This document shows, in pieces, positions 125 through 48,997 of a stretch of 64,000 nt of DNA. Every line of letters begins with the position of its first letter. The first letter of the stretch is position 1. A program made the translations under genes and the position numbers. The notes under the pieces were generated by a model that had not been told where the DNA came from, ran no database searches, and saw only the letters and a list, made by a program, of their open reading frames with translations. Origin of the DNA: Betaproteobacteria bacterium. Its GTDB lineage: Bacteria; Pseudomonadota; Gammaproteobacteria; Burkholderiales; Rhodocyclaceae. The stretch is from NCBI GenBank assembly GCA_016208415.1, contig JACQYB010000024.1, positions 1 through 64,000 on the forward strand, in the 5' to 3' direction.

Positions 125-2423
125 AGGCCGCCACCGCGACGGCGCCCCTGGCCATGGCCACCAGGGCGGAGGCATCGAGGATGAGCGCCACCCGTCCGTC
201 GCCCATGATGGTGGCGCCCGCGATGCCGGCCACCTTGCGGTAGTTGGCTTCGAGGTTCTTGATCACCACCTGGTGCTGGCCCACGAGGCTGTCGACGAAC
301 AGCGCCGCCTTGTGACCGTCGGCCTCCAGCACGACCATGATGCCGCGCTCGAAATCCCCGGCGTGGCCGCGGATGTTGAAGAGCTGGTGCAGGGCCACCA
401 CCGGCAGGTATTCGCCGCGCACCTGGATGAGCCGCTGCACGCCGTTGATGGACTTCATCATGTCGCGCCCGGGCTTGAGCGACTCCACCACGTAATTGAG
501 CGGAATGATGTAGTGCTCGGCGGCCACGGCCACGGACATGCCGTCCAGGATGGCCAGCGTCAGCGGCAGGCGCACGGTCATGCGCGTGCCCACGCCCTGC
601 ATCGACTCGATGTCGATGCGACCGCCCATGGCGCCGATGTTGCGCTTGACCACGTCCATGCCCACGCCGCGGCCGGACACTTCCGTGACTTGGTCGGCGG
701 TGGAAAAGCCGGCCTCGAAGATGAGCTGCCAGACGTCCTGGTCGCTCATGGCGTCGGACACGGCCAGCCCCCGCTCCCGCGCCTTGGCGAGGATGCGGGC
801 GCGGTTGAGCCCGGCGCCGTCGTCGCCCACTTCGATGACGATGTTGCCGCTCTGGTGCGAGGCCTTGAGGGTAATGGTGCCCACCGCGGGCTTGCCTGCG
901 GCGGCGCGGGCCTCCGGCGTCTCGATGCCGTGGTCCAGGGAGTTGCGCACCAGATGGGTGAGGGGATCGGTGATGCGCTCGATGAGCCCCTTGTCCAGTT
1001 CGGTGCTTTCGCCGGAGAGCTTCAGTTCCACCTGCTTGCCCAGTTTCTGGGAGATGTCGCGCACCACCCGCGGAAAGCGGCTGAACACCACCGACATGGG
1101 CAGCATGCGGATGGACATGACCGATTCCTGGAGATCGCGGGTGTTGCGCTCCAACTGGGAGAGACCGTTCATCAGGCGCTCGTAGATGGCCGGGTCCACG
1201 GTCGAAGCGGTCTGGGCGAGCATGGCCTGGGTGATCACCAGCTCCCCCACCAGGTTGATCATCTGGTCCACCTTTTCGACGCTGACGCGGATGGAACCGG
1301 TATCGGCGGCGGCCTTGGCGGTGCGGTTCTCCCGCGGCGGGGACTTCTGGGCCACGGCCTGAAGGGGCGGCTCCGAAGGCTTTGCCGCGGGCTCGGCGCC
1401 TGCGCTCTTCTGCCCTTCGGCCGGGCCGCACGCCGGAGCGCTCGCCGGCTCCGTGAAGAAGCCATATCCCGGATCGGACGGCGTTTCAGCCGCGGGCCTG
1501 GTGGCCGCCGGGGGGTCGGAAAAGAAGCCATAGCCGGGGTCGGCCACCTGGACGGCCGGCGCGGCGGCATCCTGCGGCAGGGGTTCGAAGAAACCGTAGC
1601 CGTCCCCGTCCGCAGCCTCTGCCAACTGCGCCAGATCCAGTGGCTCGAAGAAGCCGTACGCCTCCTCGGTGGGCGGCGACGCGTCGTCGGCCACGCCACC
1701 GAAGGTGATCTCGATGCTGCCCGGCAGGGCGACGAATTCGAGGGTCGAGTCCACCACCGCCGGGTCCGCTCCCGTCAGGGTCAGGCGCCAAGGGGCGGAG
1801 AGGTCCCCGGCGGGAGGACGCAGCACGTCGACGGCTCGGCACTGGCGCACCAGTTCATCCACCAGCCGTCCCATGATGGGATCGGATGCTGCGGCCCGCG
1901 GTTCGGGAACGAAGCGCACCACCAGGGTACGAAGCAGGTCCTCGTCCGGCTGCCCGGGGGCGGCGTCCGCGGCCTTTGGGGCGGGAGGCGATGCCGCGTC
2001 CACCCGTGCTGCCGGTGGCGCGGGCTGCGGCTGGTCGGACGACGAGAGCGCGCGCAGCCGCCGGCAGATGTCCTCCTTCGCCCCGGGTTCCGCGTCGCCC
2101 TCGCCGCGATGCGCGCCCAGCAGGCCCTTGAGCACGTCGCCGGCGACGAGGAAGGCGTCCACCATCGGCTCGGTCAGCGCCATCTCGCCCTTGCGAATGC
2201 GGTCCAGCAGGGTTTCCAGCACATGGGTCACCTCCGCCAGGTCCTGGAATCCGAAGGTGCCGCTGGAACCCTTGATGGAGTGGGCAGCGCGGAAGATCGC
2301 GTTGAGATCTTCAGAATCGGGCTGCTGCTGGTCGATATCCAGCAGCAGCGATTCCATGGTCGCGAGATGCTCCGCCGCTTCCTCGAAGAACACCTGATAG
2401 AACTGGCTCATGTCAAAAGCCAT
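123..2423 (-). CDS. cheA: Chemotaxis histidine kinase CheA
   Basis: CheA is the cytoplasmic kinase that links chemoreceptor arrays to the flagellar motor by phosphorylating CheY. An N-terminal HPt domain carries the phospho-accepting His48 in AAHSIKGSSGTFGF. A long Ala/Pro-rich linker follows, with four copies of a YGFF motif at about residues 255-325. Then come the dimerisation domain, an HATPase domain with VRNSLDHGIE, GDDGAGL and GRGVGMDVV, and a C-terminal CheW-like domain. The start at 2423 has a good GAGGAG ribosome binding site. The stop codon lies at the end of a MITE-like repeat, so the last residues may have been reset by insertion. It follows cheY in a leftward motility operon. Confidence 0.97.
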   Translation of the reverse strand: MAFDMSQFYQVFFEEAAEHLATMESLLLDIDQQQPDSEDLNAIFRAAHSIKGSSGTFGFQDLAEVTHVLETLLDRIRKGEMALTEPMVDAFLVAGDVLKGLLGAHRGEGDAEPGAKEDICRRLRALSSSDQPQPAPPAARVDAASPPAPKAADAAPGQPDEDLLRTLVVRFVPEPRAAASDPIMGRLVDELVRQCRAVDVLRPPAGDLSAPWRLTLTGADPAVVDSTLEFVALPGSIEITFGGVADDASPPTEEAYGFFEPLDLAQLAEAADGDGYGFFEPLPQDAAAPAVQVADPGYGFFSDPPAATRPAAETPSDPGYGFFTEPASAPACGPAEGQKSAGAEPAAKPSEPPLQAVAQKSPPRENRTAKAAADTGSIRVSVEKVDQMINLVGELVITQAMLAQTASTVDPAIYERLMNGLSQLERNTRDLQESVMSIRMLPMSVVFSRFPRVVRDISQKLGKQVELKLSGESTELDKGLIERITDPLTHLVRNSLDHGIETPEARAAAGKPAVGTITLKASHQSGNIVIEVGDDGAGLNRARILAKARERGLAVSDAMSDQDVWQLIFEAGFSTADQVTEVSGRGVGMDVVKRNIGAMGGRIDIESMQGVGTRMTVRLPLTLAILDGMSVAVAAEHYIIPLNYVVESLKPGRDMMKSINGVQRLIQVRGEYLPVVALHQLFNIRGHAGDFERGIMVVLEADGHKAALFVDSLVGQHQVVIKNLEANYRKVAGIAGATIMGDGRVALILDASALVAMARGAVAVAA

Positions 2424-2462
2424 TGCCGTCTCTCCTCGCAGGTATTGCGCGTGCCGGCATGG

Positions 2463-2828
2463 CTAGCCGATGACTTTCCTGACCACTTCAACCAGCTTCT
2501 GGGGCTCGAAGGGCTTGACGAGCCAACCGGTGGCGCCGGCCGCGCGACCCTGGGACTTCATGCCGTCGGAAGATTCCGTGGTGAGCATGAGGATCGGCGT
2601 GGCGCGGTACTGCGGCAGCGCACGCAGCGACTTGATGAGCGTGAGGCCATCCATGCGGGGCATGTTCTGGTCCGTCAACACGAGGTTCACGGATCGCGAC
2701 TTGGCCTTGTCCAGCCCGTCCATGCCGTCGACCGCCTCGATGACTTCGTAGCCGGAGCTCTTGAGCGTGAAGCTCACCATCTGGCGGATGGAAGGCGAAT
2801 CGTCGATCGCCAGAACTGTCTTTGCCAT
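2463..2828 (-). CDS. cheY: Chemotaxis response regulator CheY
   Basis: This is a 121-residue single receiver domain. It has the acidic pair D9-D10, the phospho-acceptor D53 in LVLTDQNMP, and the conserved Lys in VKPF. There is no output domain, as expected of CheY, which would bind the flagellar switch when phosphorylated by CheA. The start at 2828 was chosen over an upstream ATG because it has a strong AGGAGGGG ribosome binding site. It lies between the chemoreceptor gene (32-nt gap) and cheA (39-nt gap), and the order suggests one transcript. Confidence 0.93.
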   Translation of the reverse strand: MAKTVLAIDDSPSIRQMVSFTLKSSGYEVIEAVDGMDGLDKAKSRSVNLVLTDQNMPRMDGLTLIKSLRALPQYRATPILMLTTESSDGMKSQGRAAGATGWLVKPFEPQKLVEVVRKVIG

Positions 2829-2860
2829 ATTGCTTCCCCTCCTGGTACCTGCCGGAAAGA

Positions 2861-4087
2861 TCAAAACAATTCAATGTCGCCGTGCGCAAAGGCTTGCTGG
2901 CGAACCGGGTTGTGAGCAGTACGCTGCTCGAGTTCTTCGACGCTGCGACGCACCTCCGCGAGGGGCTGGCGCAACATCTCGTCCAGTTCCGGGCCGCCCG
3001 CCGCACTGGCGGTCTCGGCCAGGGCGTGAAGACGCAGGGAGACATCATCGAGGGCCTCCACCCGGCGGCCGATGTGGGCCATGAGCTGGGAGACCATGTC
3101 CTGGAACTGGAGCGACATGACCGCGTGGCCGACCTGCTCATCGACGTGGCGCGCCGCCTCGCTCATCTTCTGCACCGCCGCGGCGCGCTCGCGGGAAATG
3201 ACATCGACGCTGCGAAGAACCGTCTCCACCCGGGTCTTGGACTCGAGGGCGAAGTTCATGTCCTGGGCGGCCATCTTCTGGATGGCCGACTCGGTAGCCT
3301 CCACGGAGGTGGCCATCGACTCCATGAGCGCATTGATCTGCTGGCTGAACTGGGCGGTGCGCCCGGAGAGGTCGCGCACCTCGTCGGCCACCACCGCAAA
3401 GCCGCGGCCGCTTTCACCGGCCCGGGCAGCCTCGATGGCGGCATTGAGCGCCAGCAGGTTGGTCTGCTTGGAGATGGCACCGATTTCCGTGAGGATGCCC
3501 TGCACCGCCCGGCTGCGCCGCGCGATGCCGTCGGTGAGCTCCACCAGTTCCATGCCCAGCTTGCTGTTGGAGACGACGCTGTCGACCACCTTCTGCATCA
3601 CGTCCGAGGTATTGGCGACGAAATCGTCGAGATGTGCATACTCTCCCCGCGACGCCTCGTCCCCGGTTCCGTTGATGGCCATGGCGAGCCGTTGCTGCTC
3701 CTGGATGGTGCCGCTCATGCCGTGAAAACTCTCGCCGAGCTGGCTGATGGCATCGGCCAGGAGCCCCTGCACGCGCTCCACCTCGGCGCGCATGCCCTCG
3801 AATTGCCTGCGGAAGGCTTCCATGCACTGGCCGAGCAGTTGTTCGATGCTGAGCACGGCCGCCTGCCCAGCCGCCTGTCCCGGGGGAGGATCCTGATGCT
3901 GCCGGATGGCCGCAACGCGTGACAGATGCCAGCTCACCATGAACGCCCAACCCAGGCCCACCAGCGCGCTTGCCAGGGCCACACCCGTTCCGGAGGCCAT
4001 CGCAGGCGCGAGAGTCCCCCCGGCCACGGCCACGCCCGCCGACCACAGGATTCCGGCCCAGAGGACGCCCTTGTTGGTTTCATTCAT
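2861..4087 (-). CDS. Methyl-accepting chemotaxis protein
   Basis: This chemoreceptor of about 408 residues has two closely spaced hydrophobic segments near the N-terminus ([18 protein letters not shown] and [15 protein letters not shown]). There is almost no periplasmic loop between them, so it probably senses internal or membrane signals rather than a periplasmic ligand. The signalling tip is clear ([17 protein letters not shown], then [13 protein letters not shown]). The start at 4087 ([12 protein letters not shown]) is preferred over an upstream extension that adds only low-complexity residues. It sits between motB and cheY, so it probably feeds the local CheA-CheY pathway. Confidence 0.9.
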
Positions 4088-7384: not shown

Positions 7385-9235
7385 TCAGGAGGCAAGGCGC
7401 ACTTGTTCGAGTATTTTCTCGGATGCAACCGGGCGGCTGAAGAGGAAGCCCTGGAAGTGGTCGCATTGCTGGTCCTGGAGGAACTCCACCTGGCGTCGGG
7501 TTTCAACACCTTCGGCCACCGTGGTGAGCCGCAGGCTCTTGGCCACGGCCATGATCGCCTGCACGATGGCGGCGTCGTCATCGGAGGGCAGTTCGCGCAC
7601 GAAGGACTTGTCGATCTTGATGACGTCGATGGGAAAACGCTTGAGGTATGACAGCGACGAATAGCCGGTGCCGAAATCGTCCACGGCAATGCGCACGCCC
7701 AGTCCCTTCAGGGCACGCAGCATGCTGATGGTGGTTTCGGCGTCGCGCATCAACACGGATTCCGTGATTTCCAGTTGCAGGCACCGCGCCGGAAACCCGA
7801 TGTCGTCGAGGACGGCACGCACCGCCTCCAGCAGGCGCGGCTGGCCGAACTGGACGGCGGACACATTCACCGACACCATCAGTTCCCGGTAGCCGTGGTC
7901 GTGCCACAGCCGGCACTGCTCGCAGGCGCGCCGCAACACCCATTCGCCGATGACGACGATCAACCCGGTTTCGTCGGCGATGGGGATGAAGCGATCGGGC
8001 GCGATCAGACCATGCTGCGGATGGTTCCAGCGCAGCAGCGCCTCCGCGCCCACCATGCGGCCGCTGGCGGCGGAAAGCAGGGGCTGGAACTCGAGGTACA
8101 GCTCGCCGCGTTCCACGGCGTGGCGCAACTCGGCCTCCATCGCCACCCGCTCCGCCGAGAAGGCGCTCATCTCCCGCACGTAGCGGCGCATGCCGTTGCC
8201 CCCGGCGCGCTTGGCGACCTCCATGGCGGTCTCGGCGTTGAGCAGCAGTTCGTAGGCGTCGCTGCCATCGGCCGGCAACAGGGCCACGCCGATGCTGGGC
8301 GTCAGGTACAGCTCCAGCCGATCGCCGGCGAACGGACCGCCGAAGGCGCCCAGCAGATGAGTGCCGTACTCGAATGCCGCCTGCGCATCGCATACGCCCC
8401 GGGCGAACACGCCGAAGGTGTCGCCGCCGATGCGCGCCACCAGGTCGCCCGGCGGTATGCTGGCGGCAATCCGGCTGCCGATCTGGCGCAGGATGCCGTT
8501 GCCGGCCTCGTAGCCGAAGGAGCTGTTGATGCGCATGAAACGATCCACATCCAGGTAGAACACGGCCCCTGCCGCCGCCTCCCCTGCCGCCGCCTCCCCT
8601 GCCGCCGCCTCCCCCGCCGCCGTCTCCCCCGCCGCCGTCTCCCCTGCCGCCGTCTCCCCTGCCGCCGTCTCCCCTGCCGCCGTCTCCCCTGCCGCCGTCT
8701 CCCCTGCCGCCTGACCCAGGCTCCGATCCACTTCGCTGCAGAACAGGTTCTGGTTCGGCAGCCCGGTGAGGATGTCGTGAAAGGCCAGCTTCCAGATGCG
8801 GGCGTCGGCCTGGCGCGCGGCGCGGCGCGCCGCAGCACCGCGCAGTTCGCGCTCGATCACCGGCATGAGTTTCTCGTAGTCGCCCTTGGCGATGAAGTCG
8901 CTCACGCCCACCTGCATGGCGCTCACGGCCTGACCGGCCGAGATCTTGCCGGAGTAGATGACGAAGGGGATGTCCTTGCCGCTGCGCTTGACGATATCGA
9001 GCGCATCGAGGGAATCGAAGCCGGGCATCTGGTGATCGCACAGGATGATGTCCCATTCTTCGGCATCGATCGCCCGCGCCAGATCCCGCGGCGTGTCGAC
9101 GCGGCTGTGCCCCAGGCGAGCGCCGCGCGCGGCAAGCTCGGAGAACAGCAAGACGGTGTCATCTTCGGAGTCGTCCACGACTAGGACGCGCACGCAACGA
9201 TCCATTTCGGGCATGGCCAATAGAGCGTGATTCAT
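7385..9235 (-). CDS. REC-GGDEF-EAL cyclic-di-GMP signalling protein
   Basis: This 616-residue response regulator has a receiver at about residues 16-130 (VDDSEDD, ILCDHQMPG), a GGDEF domain at about 150-345 and an EAL domain at about 360-610. The GGDEF signature is degenerate (RIGGDTFGVF) and no RxxD inhibitory site precedes it, so cyclase activity is doubtful. The EAL domain keeps EALLRW, DDFGTGYSS and KIDKSFV, so phosphodiesterase activity is likely. A run of nine AAGE[T/A] pentapeptides, encoded by a 15-bp tandem repeat, is inserted early in the GGDEF domain. It lies upstream of flhDC and may tune motility. Start codon choice among three nearby Met codons is uncertain. Confidence 0.9.
   Translation of the reverse strand: MNHALLAMPEMDRCVRVLVVDDSEDDTVLLFSELAARGARLGHSRVDTPRDLARAIDAEEWDIILCDHQMPGFDSLDALDIVKRSGKDIPFVIYSGKISAGQAVSAMQVGVSDFIAKGDYEKLMPVIERELRGAAARRAARQADARIWKLAFHDILTGLPNQNLFCSEVDRSLGQAAGETAAGETAAGETAAGETAAGETAAGETAAGEAAAGEAAAGEAAAGAVFYLDVDRFMRINSSFGYEAGNGILRQIGSRIAASIPPGDLVARIGGDTFGVFARGVCDAQAAFEYGTHLLGAFGGPFAGDRLELYLTPSIGVALLPADGSDAYELLLNAETAMEVAKRAGGNGMRRYVREMSAFSAERVAMEAELRHAVERGELYLEFQPLLSAASGRMVGAEALLRWNHPQHGLIAPDRFIPIADETGLIVVIGEWVLRRACEQCRLWHDHGYRELMVSVNVSAVQFGQPRLLEAVRAVLDDIGFPARCLQLEITESVLMRDAETTISMLRALKGLGVRIAVDDFGTGYSSLSYLKRFPIDVIKIDKSFVRELPSDDDAAIVQAIMAVAKSLRLTTVAEGVETRRQVEFLQDQQCDHFQGFLFSRPVASEKILEQVRLAS
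8567..8710. repeat. In-frame 15-bp tandem repeat (about 9.5 units)
   Basis: Units of the form CCCCTGCCGCCGTCT follow one another with only C/T changes at two positions. Read leftward they encode AAGET (six times) then AAGEA (three times). Because the unit is five codons, gain or loss of units never shifts the frame. Near-identity of the units suggests recent slippage expansion. Confidence 0.95.
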
Positions 9236-17051: not shown

Positions 17052-17053
17052 GT

Positions 17054-17152
17054 CAGTGGAAACGCCATCTGCGCGGCCCAGTCGAAACGCCGATGCCGCG
17101 GCCCGGTCAAAGCCCCGGCTCCGCGGCGCGGCCGAAGCGCCGGGACAGGGCG
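17054..17152 (-). repeat. 25-bp tandem repeat array A (about 4 units)
   Basis: Four diverged units of 25 bp, each containing a GAAACGCC-like core on the plus strand, run up to the start codon of the first MASE1 kinase. Read leftward, at least two units show the GCCG-N6-CGGC mini-hairpin typical of this family. Unlike the other arrays this one is not attached to a stop codon. Confidence 0.7.
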
Positions 17153-19121: not shown

Positions 19122-19285
19122 AGCAGCCTGTCGGACTTAAGCGATCGTAGCGAGCCGAGTGGGAGAGCGAGGACAGTTTTCCCCGATTCTGAGGCGCATA
19201 GTGGGGCTACGCAACGAAGAATCGGGGAAAAATGGACCGCTCTCCCACCGGCGCAGTAGATCAGTCTTAAGTCCGACAGGCTGCT
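19122..19285. mobile_element. MITE-like element, complete copy (164 bp, 20-bp perfect terminal inverted repeats)
   Basis: Perfect 20-bp inverted repeats at 19122-19141 and 19266-19285 (AGCAGCCTGTCGG at the outer end) bracket a second, nested palindrome (arms near 19161-19189 and 19218-19244). There is no ORF. A truncated copy in the same orientation starts the window. The form suits a non-autonomous element moved by a transposase in trans. No clear target-site duplication was seen. Confidence 0.8.
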
Positions 19286-19467
19286 AGCACAAGGCACGAA
19301 CCACGCCCTCGCAGGCGTCGCCTGACCAATAACCGAAAAGCCGGCACGACCCGTCAAGCGGGCGAAAGGACGCGAAGTCGTCCGCCCCGCGACAGTCGAA
19401 ATGTCGGCTCGAAGGCAGCAAGCATGGGAAACACGATGAAGGGAACTGCGGAAAGACGCGGTGCGGA

Positions 19468-29492: not shown

Positions 29493-29516
29493 ACGGGGCG
29501 ATCCGCGCCGGAACGC

Positions 29517-29589
29517 CGTCGAAGCGCGGACTGCGCCGCCCGTCGAAGCGCCGACTGCGCGCTACCGTCGAAACGCGGACTTGCGCCGC
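29517..29589 (-). repeat. 25-bp tandem repeat array B (3 units) directly after the glnB stop
   Basis: Read leftward, the array begins with the base after the glnB TGA. Units of 24-26 bp share GCGG-N6/7-CCGC-GTTTCGAC or close variants. It fills the convergent gap between smr and glnB. Confidence 0.8.
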
Positions 29590-29946
<357 letters not shown>

Positions 29947-33753: not shown

Positions 33754-33829
33754 TCAGCGAAAACGCGGACCTCGCCGCTCGCCGAAATCCCCGACGCGTG
33801 CCGCTCCATCAAGACGCGGACAAGCCCGC
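33754..33829 (-). repeat. 25-bp tandem repeat array C (3 units) directly after the ppa stop
   Basis: Read leftward from the ppa TGA, three units of 25-26 bp follow. Units 1 and 3 have GCGG-N6-CCGC stems followed by GTCTTGA or GTTTTCG; unit 2 is decayed. The last codons of ppa (GACAAGCCGGCGTTT) themselves resemble the 3' half of a unit, so the repeat may have reached into the gene. Confidence 0.78.
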
Positions 33830-34378
33830 TCAAAACGCCGGCTTGTCCTTGGCATCGTTGAAGCGGCGCACCCCTTCCATGACCTCGCCCTTGGCTTCCT
33901 CCGCCCCCACCCAGCCGACCACCTTCACGAATTTCCCGGGCTCCAGGTCCTTGTAATGCTCGAAGAAGTGGGAGATCTGGTGCAGGGTGATGTGCGGCAG
34001 GTCCCGCGGCGACTCCACGCTGCGGTACACGGGCGTGAGCTTGTCCACCGGCACCGCCAGCAGCTTGGCATCATCGCCGGCCTCGTCGGACATCCTGAGC
34101 ATGCCGATGGGGCGGCAACGCACCACCACCCCCGGCGGCAGCGCGAACTGGCACATCACCAGCACGTCCACCGGATCGCCGTCACCGGCGATGGTGTGGG
34201 GGATGTAGCCGTAGTTGCAGGGGTAGTGCATGGCGGTGGACATGAAGCGATCGACGAAGATGGCGCCCGAGTCCTTGTCCACCTCGTACTTGATCGGCTC
34301 GGCGTGCATCGGGATTTCGATGACGACGTTGAAATCGCTGGGCAAATCCTTGCCGGATGGCACGCTCGAGAGCCCCAT
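33830..34378 (-). CDS. ppa: Inorganic pyrophosphatase (family I)
   Basis: This 182-residue hexameric-type enzyme has the metal-binding signature DGDPVDVLV and NYGYIPHTIAGDG. It hydrolyses pyrophosphate to drive biosynthesis. Its final residues DKPAF are encoded by sequence resembling the repeat array that follows, so the C-terminus may have been remodelled. It stands alone between the epimerase gene and copper genes. Confidence 0.96.
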   Translation of the reverse strand: MGLSSVPSGKDLPSDFNVVIEIPMHAEPIKYEVDKDSGAIFVDRFMSTAMHYPCNYGYIPHTIAGDGDPVDVLVMCQFALPPGVVVRCRPIGMLRMSDEAGDDAKLLAVPVDKLTPVYRSVESPRDLPHITLHQISHFFEHYKDLEPGKFVKVVGWVGAEEAKGEVMEGVRRFNDAKDKPAF

Positions 34379-37891: not shown

Positions 37892-37946
37892 GGCCAGTCA
37901 AAACGCCGACCGCGCGACTCGGTGAAAACACCGCCTTGTCGACCGC
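37892..37946 (-). repeat. 25-bp tandem repeat array D (2 units) directly after the TauE/SafE stop
   Basis: Read leftward from the TGA at 37949-37947, two units (28 and 25 bp) end in GTTTTCACC and GTTTTGACTGG. The first has its own hairpin (CGGTG-TTTT-CACCG). Confidence 0.7.
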
Positions 37947-38657
37947 TCAGGTGTGGCAAACCACGCCAGCCCACAGGCGCCCGCCCAGGGTTGCCGCGTT
38001 CGCCAGGCCGAACAGGCCGAATCCCAGCACGATCAGCCCGGAGGCGACCCGCACCGCACGCTGCCGGGTGACATCGCGCAGCCGCTTGAGCAGCATGCCC
38101 GCCAGCAACAGGTTGGGCAAGGTGCCCAGCCCGAACGCCAGCATCAGCCCCGCCCCGCGCCCGGCACTGCCCGCCACCAGCGCCGTGGTCAGCACGCTAT
38201 AGACCATGCCGCACGGCAGCATACCCCACAGCGCACCCAGGGGCAGCGCCTGCCTCACCGACCGTACGGGCAGGAAGCGCGCGGTGAAGGGACGCACGTG
38301 CGCCCACAGCTTCTGTCCCAGCCGCTCCGTGAACGCCAGCGCCCCCGGCAGCCCGGTGAGATAGAGTCCCAGCCCGATGAGCATCAGGTTGGCGAGGATG
38401 TAGAGGGCCATCTGCACCGGCAGGGCGTCGTTGAGGAGCAGGCCGACGCTGCCGAGGGCGCCCATCAGTGCGCCCGTCGCCGTATAGGTGGCGATGCGCC
38501 CGAAGTTGTACGCCAGGTGCAGAGGCCACCGGGCGCGCGCCCCGTCCGTGTGCATCTGTACGGTGAGCGCGCTGACGATGCCGCCGCACATGCCGGCGCA
38601 GTGGGTTCCCCCCAGCAAACCGATGAGAAAGACGGCGATGTATCCGGTTTCAGGCAT
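37947..38657 (-). CDS. Sulfite exporter TauE/SafE family membrane protein
   Basis: This 236-residue protein has about six hydrophobic helices and the conserved GTHCAGMCGGIVSAL near the N-terminus and LWGMLPCGMVYSVL in the second half, giving Cys residues in both repeats. This DsbD-like subgroup is often found beside cbb3 oxidase or hemN genes and is suspected of copper or redox handling in oxidase assembly; the neighbourhood here agrees. Precise substrate unknown. Confidence 0.85.
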   Translation of the reverse strand: MPETGYIAVFLIGLLGGTHCAGMCGGIVSALTVQMHTDGARARWPLHLAYNFGRIATYTATGALMGALGSVGLLLNDALPVQMALYILANLMLIGLGLYLTGLPGALAFTERLGQKLWAHVRPFTARFLPVRSVRQALPLGALWGMLPCGMVYSVLTTALVAGSAGRGAGLMLAFGLGTLPNLLLAGMLLKRLRDVTRQRAVRVASGLIVLGFGLFGLANAATLGGRLWAGVVCHT

Positions 38658-40282: not shown

Positions 40283-41017
40283 GTGCATTCTCCTGCCATC
40301 AGGATCTCCTCACAAAGCCTGCAGGTGGCCTGTTCGCAGTGCAATTTGCGTGAGCTTTGCCTGCCCTACGGGCTCCATTCCGACGAGGTGGAGAAGCTGG
40401 ACGAAATGGTCGGCATGCGCCGCCGCGTCAAGCGTGGACAGCACCTGTACCGGGCGGGCGAACCCTTCGAATCCATATTCGCGGTGCGCATGGGTTTCTT
40501 CAAGACCGGCGTCATCCTGGAAGACGGCCGCGAGCAGGTCACGGGCTTCCAGATGTCCGGCGAACTGCTTGGCCTGGACGGCATCAGCAGCGAATCCCAC
40601 ACCTGCAACGCGGTGGCGCTGGAGGACAGCGACGTGTGCGTCATCCCGTTCTCGCGCCTGGAGCACCTGTCGCGGGAAATCGAATCGCTGCAGCACAACT
40701 TCCACAAGGTGATGAGCCGCGAGATCGTGCGCGACCAAGGGATCATGATGCTGCTCGGCTCGATGCACGCCGAGGAGCGTCTGGCCGCCTTCCTGCTCAA
40801 CCTCTCCCAGCGCTTCACCACGCGCGGATTCTCGCCGTCCGAATTCCACCTGCGCATGACGCGCCAGGAAATCGGCTCCTACCTCGGGCTCAAGCTCGAA
40901 ACGGTCAGTCGCGCCTTCTCCAAGTTCCAGGAAGGAAACCTGATCAGCGTCCAGCAAAAGCACATCCACATCCTGGACATCCCCGGACTTCGCCGCATCC
41001 TGCGCAAGCAGGACTGA
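40283..41017 (+). CDS. fnr: Oxygen-sensing regulator FNR
   Basis: This 244-residue Crp-fold regulator has Cys17, Cys20, Cys26 (CSQCNLRELC) and Cys108 (SHTCNAV) positioned to hold the oxygen-labile 4Fe-4S cluster. Its helix-turn-helix MTRQEIGSYLGLKLETVSRAFSKF carries the E-SR recognition residues for TTGAT half-sites. It probably controls the FNR boxes found across this window. Translation starts at a GTG (40283) with an AGGAGG site. The stop codon is followed by one 25-bp repeat unit. Confidence 0.96.
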   Translation: MHSPAIRISSQSLQVACSQCNLRELCLPYGLHSDEVEKLDEMVGMRRRVKRGQHLYRAGEPFESIFAVRMGFFKTGVILEDGREQVTGFQMSGELLGLDGISSESHTCNAVALEDSDVCVIPFSRLEHLSREIESLQHNFHKVMSREIVRDQGIMMLLGSMHAEERLAAFLLNLSQRFTTRGFSPSEFHLRMTRQEIGSYLGLKLETVSRAFSKFQEGNLISVQQKHIHILDIPGLRRILRKQD

Positions 41018-41043
41018 GCGGCTTGTCCGCGGTTGGACCGGGC
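41018..41043 (+). repeat. Single 25-bp repeat unit (locus G) directly after the fnr stop
   Basis: GCGG-CTTGT-CCGC followed by GGTTGGACCGGG begins with the base after the fnr TGA. Same stem type as arrays B and C, in a single copy. Confidence 0.6.
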
Positions 41044-46486: not shown

Positions 46487-47890
46487 CTACGCAATGAGCT
46501 GACGTTCCCCCGGCCGCGGCAGGCACACCCCCTGCCACCGCAGCCGGGCCGCGATCGTCTCGGCGAAGGCTTGCGCCGTAGCCGCCTCGCCGTGGACGAC
46601 AAAGGTGCGCCCCGGCGGGCGGCGAAAGTGCCCCAACCAGTCCAGCAGCCCCTGCCGGTCGGCATGGGCGGACAGTCCGCCCACCGTGAGGATGCGCGCG
46701 CGCACCGCCACCGTCTCGCCGAAGAGGGTGACCTTGCGTGCGCCGTCCACCAGTCGCCGGCCCAGCGAGCCCTGGGCCTGGAAGCCGGCAATGACCACCG
46801 CGCATTCCTTGCGCGGCAGGTTGTGCAGCAGGTGGTACTTGATTCGTCCGGCATCGCACATGCCGCTGGCGGAAATGATCACCGCGCCGCTGACGGTGCG
46901 GTTGAGGGCCTTGGATTCTTCCACGTCCTGCACGAAGCGCACCTGCGGCGCCAGCTTCGAATGCGCCTGCCAGGCGATGAGATCGCGCGTCTCCTGGTCG
47001 AGCAGCGGCTGGTGGCGCAGGGTGATCTGCGTGGCCGCCAGCGCCATGGGCGAGTCCACATAGACGTCGATGCGCCCGAGGCGGCCGCGTCGCGCCAGGT
47101 CGGCCAGCACGAACAGGATTTCCTGGGTGCGCCCGACGGAGAACGCCGGAATGATGACGTTGCCGTGGCGCAGGGTGGAGCCGAGGGCCTCCACCAGTTC
47201 TTCCTCGGTCTGGGCCAGCGGCTTGTGCAGGCGGTTGCCGTAGGTGGATTCCACCACCAGCACATCGGCCTCCTCCACCGGGAAGGGGTCCCGCACCACC
47301 GGCCGGGCCGGCTGGCCGAGATCGCCGGAGAACACCAGCTTGCGCTCGCCGCCTTCGCCCCCGACCCAGAGTTCGACGATGGACGATCCGAGGATGTGCC
47401 CGGCATCGCGCAGGCGTACCCGCACCCGGGGGTGGGGGCGGAACTCGGCGTCGTAGTCGACGCCGCGCACTTGAGCCAGGCAGCCCTGGGCCTGGGCGAC
47501 GGTGTAGAGCGGCGCCGGCTGCATCATGCGTCGGTCGCCGCGGGCGCGGCGTCGGCGCAGGTCCCATTCCAGTTCCTTCTCCTGGATGTGCGCCGAATCC
47601 AGCAGCATCACCCCGAGCAGATCCACCGTGGCGCGGGTGGCGTAGATCGGGCCGCGATACCCCAGCGCGGTCAGGCGCGGCAGCAGGCCGGAATGATCGA
47701 GATGGGCGTGGGAGAGCACCACGAAGTCGAGGCTGCGCAGATCGAAGTCCAGCGCCGCCAGGTTCTTGCGCCAGGCATCGCGCCCGCCCTGGAAAAGACC
47801 GCAATCCACCAGGAAGCGCGCCCCGGACGCCTCCACCATCATGCATGAGCCGGTCACCTCGCCGGCCGCGCCGTGAAAAGTCAGTTGCAT
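46487..47890 (-). CDS. Metallo-beta-lactamase/beta-CASP RNA nuclease
   Basis: This 467-residue CPSF73-like protein has zinc motifs HAHLDHSG, the aspartate of SGDLGQP and the late SAHADRQGLLDWL, a beta-CASP domain with STYGNRLH and PAFSVGRTQEIL, and the C-terminal RMMBL segment. Bacterial members are predicted RNA exo/endonucleases. The start at 47890 has a perfect GGAGGAA site. It is divergent from the FNR-driven usp and shares the intergenic FNR box, a common pairing in anaerobic respirers (from memory). Confidence 0.92.
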   Translation of the reverse strand: MQLTFHGAAGEVTGSCMMVEASGARFLVDCGLFQGGRDAWRKNLAALDFDLRSLDFVVLSHAHLDHSGLLPRLTALGYRGPIYATRATVDLLGVMLLDSAHIQEKELEWDLRRRRARGDRRMMQPAPLYTVAQAQGCLAQVRGVDYDAEFRPHPRVRVRLRDAGHILGSSIVELWVGGEGGERKLVFSGDLGQPARPVVRDPFPVEEADVLVVESTYGNRLHKPLAQTEEELVEALGSTLRHGNVIIPAFSVGRTQEILFVLADLARRGRLGRIDVYVDSPMALAATQITLRHQPLLDQETRDLIAWQAHSKLAPQVRFVQDVEESKALNRTVSGAVIISASGMCDAGRIKYHLLHNLPRKECAVVIAGFQAQGSLGRRLVDGARKVTLFGETVAVRARILTVGGLSAHADRQGLLDWLGHFRRPPGRTFVVHGEAATAQAFAETIAARLRWQGVCLPRPGERQLIA

Positions 47891-48442: not shown

Positions 48443-48541
48443 GCCGCGGAGTCGGCGTTTCAACCGCGCCGCGGAGTCGGCGTTTCAACCGCGCCGCGGA
48501 GTCGGCGTTTCAACCGGGCGGCGGAGTCGGCACACTGACCT
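48443..48541 (+). repeat. 25-bp tandem repeat array E (4 units) directly after the usp stop
   Basis: Three essentially identical 25-bp units (GCCG-CGGAGT-CGGC-GTTTCAACCG) and a fourth diverged one begin with the base after the usp TGA. Near-identity of the units points to recent amplification. This is the cleanest array of the family. Confidence 0.92.
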
Positions 48542-48604
48542 GGCACTCGCCCAAGGCACATCAGGTCCGGACACACTGCATCAGGCCCACGAGGAGAATG
48601 AGCG

Positions 48605-48871
48605 ATGAACGAAGAGAAGTCGCAGATCGACAAGCTGTTCGACGACTTGCGCCAACAACGTGACGAACTCAAGCTGAAGATCCATCTCGCCCAGGCAGAC
48701 GCACGGGACGAATGGGAAGCCCTCGAAACCAAGTGGGAACAGATGAAACCCCGCATCGAGGCCGCAGGCGAAGAGGCTGCAAAGGCTTCCCGCAACGTGC
48801 TGAGCGGGCTGGAGATCATCGGCGAGGAAATCCGCGCCGGCTATCACCGCATCCGCGAGCGGCTGCGCTGA
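48605..48871 (+). CDS. Small charged coiled-coil protein
   Basis: This 88-residue, highly charged protein is predicted helical throughout (QIDKLFDDLRQQRDELKLKIHLAQADARDEWEALETKWEQ), with heptad-like leucines and no membrane segment. A GAGGAG site precedes the start. I do not recognise the family by name. Position just after an FNR-driven usp suggests co-expression in stress or anoxia. Its stop also opens a 25-bp repeat array. Confidence 0.8.
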   Translation: MNEEKSQIDKLFDDLRQQRDELKLKIHLAQADARDEWEALETKWEQMKPRIEAAGEEAAKASRNVLSGLEIIGEEIRAGYHRIRERLR

Positions 48872-48997
48872 GCCGCGGCGTCGGCGTTTCAGGCTGGCCG
48901 CGGAACCGGCGTTTCAGGCTGGCCTCGAAGCGAGGGATTCGACTGAGCCACTGCGTCGGCAATCCAGGGTGGCCGTGGAATCGTCGATTCCGGGGCA
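48872..48997 (+). repeat. 25-bp tandem repeat array F (about 5 units) directly after a stop codon
   Basis: Units of 25, 25, 25, 25 and 26 bp begin with the base after the TGA at 48869-48871. The first two share GCCG-N6-CGGC-GTTTCAGGCTG; the third keeps a different stem (CCTC-GAAGC-GAGG); the last two are decayed. Confidence 0.88.

Follow-up and report, generated by a model that had tools for sequence, protein, structure and literature searches.

Tagged REP sequences and the arrays of the window

REP-type repeats are common and lie at gene ends. E. coli REPs located near stop codons reportedly have an effect on translation. The class nearest to the repeat described here is that of the GTAG- and CGTC-tagged REPs. 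These are short hairpins with an unpaired terminal tag, mostly located 3' of genes, and they include subfamilies with alternative complementary stem bases. A gene's TAG stop codon often comes from the GTAG tag, and the elements are normally paired in opposite orientations, head-tail dimers being rare or absent (Di Nocera et al. 2013, PMC3733652). TnpAREP nucleases bind a single-stranded hairpin that bears a tag and cleave at C|T, and in both the TnpAREP and IS200/IS605 systems the hairpin lies beside a short tag (PMC8266576).

The present repeat resembles these elements in several respects. It is a palindromic repeat within the 20-40 nt range with many extragenic copies, it is preferentially located 3' of genes (64 of 110 intergenic arrays start between -1 and +5 nt relative to a stop codon), it shows alternative complementary bases in its stem and its hairpin neighbours a short tag. 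However, the family differs from tagged REPs in the tag (CYGR/CTGA rather than GTAG or CGTC), in the direct head-to-tail orientation of its arrays (57 neighbouring pairs of units in the same direction versus 1 in opposite directions) and in that about half of its arrays abut a TGA exactly. Nor was a cognate RAYT gene found with the repeat on its flanks, as GTAG families have. The GTAG-1 repeats of Thauera sp. MZ1T (PMC3733652), compared here by description rather than by sequence, also come from the Rhodocyclales, have short 5-bp stems, are clustered and were discovered by inspection of tandem repeats, but they carry a GTAG tag. No named stop-attached tandem repeat was found in the literature outside subscription journals. 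The initial annotation, which knew of no named family with such a rule, had overlooked that tagged REPs, a named class, come close (PMC3733652). Rfam gave no match above the gathering score for the six 25-nt-type array loci searched.

The window (the whole stretch of 64,000 nt analysed) contains six genes in which the first base after the TGA is also the first base of an array of between one and five units, each about 25 nt long and in the orientation of the gene. This was the central claim of the initial annotation and it is borne out by the sequence. The usp gene (universal stress protein, Pfam PF00582; 47999..48442, + strand) ends with CGC-TGA and is directly followed by four 25-nt hairpin units, of which the fourth is degenerate and the others are nearly identical (48443..48542, +). 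A neighbouring 88-aa gene without Pfam match (48605..48871, +) is directly followed by five 25-nt units, the last three degenerate (48872..48996, +). On the minus strand, three units lie directly 3' of the TGA of glnB (array 29515..29589; gene 29590-29928) and about three directly 3' of that of ppa (array 33754..33829; gene 33830-34378), where the last is the only strong one. Two further units, a 28-nt degenerate one and then one of 25 nt, directly follow the TGA of a gene at 37947-38657 (array 37894..37946, -). The fnr/crp-type regulator gene (40325-41017) has a single degenerate unit directly 3' of its TGA (41018..41042, +). Pfam agrees with the identities first given to usp, glnB (P-II), ppa (pyrophosphatase) and the Crp/Fnr gene, but the gene initially called TauE/SafE matches instead DsbD_2, the cytochrome c biogenesis transmembrane region. 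A seventh array, of four units (17053..17152, -), had been described as adjoining a start codon; it indeed ends just before the ATG of a histidine kinase gene (Pfam) and is not attached to a stop, the nearest same-strand stop lying 313 nt before it. A degenerate array reported after an "epimerase" gene was not located. Two other repetitions were also observed in the window: an 85-bp sequence present twice in the same orientation with 96% identity, about 19 kb apart (42-126 and 19203-19287), and a 15-bp tandem repeat (CCCCTGCCGCCGTCT) in about ten copies, apparently coding (8566-8711).

Structure of the unit

Each unit is composed of a hairpin and an 11-nt tail, GTTTCRACYGR. In the 25-nt subtype (R1) the hairpin has a 4-bp stem and a 6-nt loop, while the 28-nt subtype, discovered when the 3' flank of every called gene was inspected, has a 6-bp stem and a 5-nt loop followed by the same tail. 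Hairpins of the latter occur as GCACCC-GTGAA-GGGTGC, GCATCC-GTGAA-GGATGC and GCAGGC-GTGAA-GCCTGC. The R1 model was built from forty units and the R2 model from eight units of the 28-nt subtype picked after stops; neither includes the stop codon. Chance is excluded for R1 matches, with 13 at a score of at least 18 in 464 kb versus 0 in a shuffled copy.

The hairpin is supported by covariation. Among 78 distinct R1 units, pair 3-12 switches between C-G and G-C (41 versus 32, with 3 unpaired), giving 32 double changes, and 96.5% of cells are paired. In R2, double changes occur in 4 of 6 pairs and 96.9% are paired. Stem sites vary by 4%, the loop and tail by about 19-20%. Predicted folding energies are -5.9 kcal/mol for the 25-nt hairpin and -12.6 kcal/mol for the 28-nt subtype; the whole usp array, when folded, is not more stable than its shuffles. 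An alternative hairpin of the 25-nt unit (positions 9-12 with 19-22) was rejected for lack of covariation. Neither the covarying hairpin nor the second subtype with its 6-bp stem, nor the preference for CTGA over other stops, figured in the initial annotation.

The unpaired tag CYGR is found upstream of the hairpin in 60% of inner units and before 46% of those first units which do not directly follow a stop, for a background of 2.7%. The tag is therefore part of the element; at the end of a gene it takes the form CTGA, of which the TGA serves as that gene's stop codon. Most arrays consist of a single detected unit. The same gene end occurs twice about 1.1 kb apart (G000:C31:46004-46055 and 47090-47167) with arrays differing in unit number, possibly a record of array growth after duplication. 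In the tandem array following a gtcTGA stop at G000:C47:6406-6480, the hairpin is kept while the tail GCCGAGTCCGG replaces GTTTCGACYGR; this is perhaps a third subtype.

Placement relative to stop codons

Genome-wide, the R1 and R2 models together identify 175 units in 118 arrays, of which 110 are intergenic relative to genes called by a six-frame model blind to repeats. Exact abutment, with the array starting one base after the stop, is observed in 56 of these 110, whereas a random intergenic strand-position abuts a stop with a probability of 0.0031 (p about 1e-109). The profile search with distances to stops proposed in the initial annotation thus yields a clearly non-random placement (0.3% expected). 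Another 21 or so arrays begin 20-80 nt 3' of a stop on the same strand, in most cases with a worn unit in between. The "strict attachment" initially proposed is nevertheless too strong a term since about 15 intergenic arrays, including that at 17053-17152, have no nearby same-strand stop, although a few of them may follow uncalled genes. The stop rule is strong but not strict. It extends to R2, whose training units had been picked after stops: of its 55 arrays, 48 are outside the training set and 20 of these 48 lie right at a stop. In 400 kb outside the window, chosen regardless of the repeat, overall density is low and only one strong stop-attached R1 unit was found, which makes the window a region rich in the repeat. 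A sample of twenty genes with arrays is diverse, without a common function (it includes ffh, lptD, dapD, apaG, a sigma-70-type factor and a HIT gene), and many arrays are situated between genes of the same direction.

The ordinary REPs of the same genome (GTGGGAGCGGGC palindromes, BIMEs) are likewise intergenic hairpin repeats. In contrast to the present repeat they form inverted pairs, have a different sequence and are directly at a stop in only 1 of 83 intergenic copies. They constitute an internal control without the effect, for a repeat whose position is exact to the base and whose tag is the stop codon. Single hairpin units also occur inside or beside GTGGGAGCGGGC palindromes (L023 1505-1529 and G000:C86:11579-11687); the second of these loci holds the only oppositely oriented neighbouring pair of units.

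Not all stops are equally used. Among stops with free 3' sides, units are found at 52 of 268 CTGA stops but at 5 of 177 other TGA stops (Fisher p 6e-8), 2 of 117 TAG and 1 of 43 TAA, rates which are relative only because the denominators were drawn from repeat-enriched segments. Under the same restriction, CTGAs that are intergenic but not stops carry a unit in 4 of 614 cases (stop versus non-stop CTGA, Fisher p 3e-24); of eight raw matches, four were removed as inner array units or as following a short called gene. The real rule is therefore "a CTGA that is a stop": both the CTGA and the stop count. When only convergent genes are considered, 15 of 72 CTGA stops carry a unit versus 0 of 79 non-stop CTGAs (p 6e-6), so that neither a bare CTGA target nor avoidance of promoters explains the attachment.

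Probable spread and retention, and possible role

The repeat probably represents a dispersed REP-like family of CTGA-tagged, head-to-tail hairpins in which the 5' tag and the stop codon coincide; it would be copied, joined at C|TGA and kept mainly at gene ends. The family has a covarying hairpin, two stem subtypes with a common tail, and has spread to functionally unrelated genes. In this view an HUH/TnpAREP-like nuclease with cleavage at C|T would copy units in the form of single-stranded hairpins, and these would be joined at C|TGA. Cleavage of the TnpAREP type would hit C|TGA precisely at either side of the unit and could thus release and join it. Since joining at C|TGA restores the stop together with the next target, the reading frame would remain intact and arrays could grow head to tail. 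Units would then be retained mainly at gene ends. If the transcribed hairpin has any effect, it is probably on ribosome release or 3'-5' mRNA decay, in line with what REPs do; it may play a part in termination or in the 3' stability of the mRNA. The special insertion mechanism envisaged in the initial annotation would fit this CTGA (C|T) rule, but, in contrast to IS200/IS605 and TnpAREP systems, no cognate transposase was found.

A C|T target alone leaves the empty non-stop CTGAs unexplained, which points to either selection at gene ends or coupling to termination. Neutral insertion at any CTGA, with stops seeming preferred since insertions elsewhere are harmful, would account for the strong CTGA preference and for the loss of insertions within genes. 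Yet hardly any intergenic CTGA other than a stop carries a unit, and this holds even between convergent genes, a setting without promoters that an insertion could damage; this reading is quite improbable, and as the sole cause it is already contradicted. Selection could instead act on functional 3'-UTR elements, with little or no ongoing transposition, if a hairpin abutting UGA alters ribosome release, rescue or 3' mRNA decay. The enrichment of stops beyond that of CTGA even among convergent genes, the far better conservation of stems than of loop and tail, and the constant sense orientation of the units are consistent with this. On the other hand, a copying process is still required for near-identical units at unrelated loci, the bearing genes have no common function while most genes have no unit, it is not obvious why an mRNA function would need a C before the stop, and about 15 arrays lie away from stops. 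We regard such elements as a rather unlikely alternative. Somewhat more doubtful is a mechanistic coupling of termination and spread, in which a mobile hairpin with the stop codon as its tag would be inserted or retained only where the ribosome terminates at CUGA. As target choice (C|T) and retention at stops are separated in this system, both can be tested, as can any influence of a hairpin immediately 3' of UGA on termination or mRNA decay.

A GC-rich hairpin at gene ends, reaching -12.6 kcal/mol in the 28-nt subtype, could also suggest transcription terminators. However, the tail GUUUCGAC contains no U-tract, the 25-nt hairpin is weak, most arrays have one detected unit and many separate genes of the same direction. 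In E. coli, moreover, the efficiency of a terminator fell from about 90% to under 10% when it stood 5 bp behind a stop (PMC4824070). For want of a U-tract and of a stable 25-nt hairpin, and because such post-stop terminators fail, a terminator role is very unlikely. The element might also have brought its own TGA and truncated genes, by analogy with the GTAG-tagged REPs reported to provide TAG stops (PMC3733652). In the two genes tested the ends are conserved: usp orthologues of 80 Rhodocyclales have the same end codon in 77 of 80 and the array in none, so that the usp stop is ancestral, and the C-termini of dapD, which bears a unit here, match in relatives lacking the unit. Judged from these two genes, truncation is extremely improbable. 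A selenocysteine-type signal was set aside on general grounds, since the proteins end naturally at these stops and the unit lengths are not divisible by three.

The family of CTGA-tagged hairpins is apparently confined to the lineage of this genome, judging from its matches, which stay close to background in 40 relatives: these have 0-4 R1 matches each versus 81 here, and 0-1 R2 matches each versus 64 here. An exact 19-mer search across 84,980 species gave matches in this genome alone, in a set from which near records may be missing. Stop-adjacent hairpins at 80 Rhodocyclales loci numbered 15 for a mean of 12, no clear excess in this small sample and therefore no sign there of the same architecture with other sequences.

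No cognate enzyme was identified for the hairpin repeat, because the palindromes neighbouring the single Y1 (RAYT-type) transposase gene of the genome (G000:C35:52700-52939; L151 about 2400-3040 and 3920-3991) are of another type. This Y1 gene lies within one long open frame of 1257 codons, with GGGAGCGCGGGC palindromes on both sides and a further copy downstream, as if a REP-transposase cassette were sitting in frame within a larger gene.
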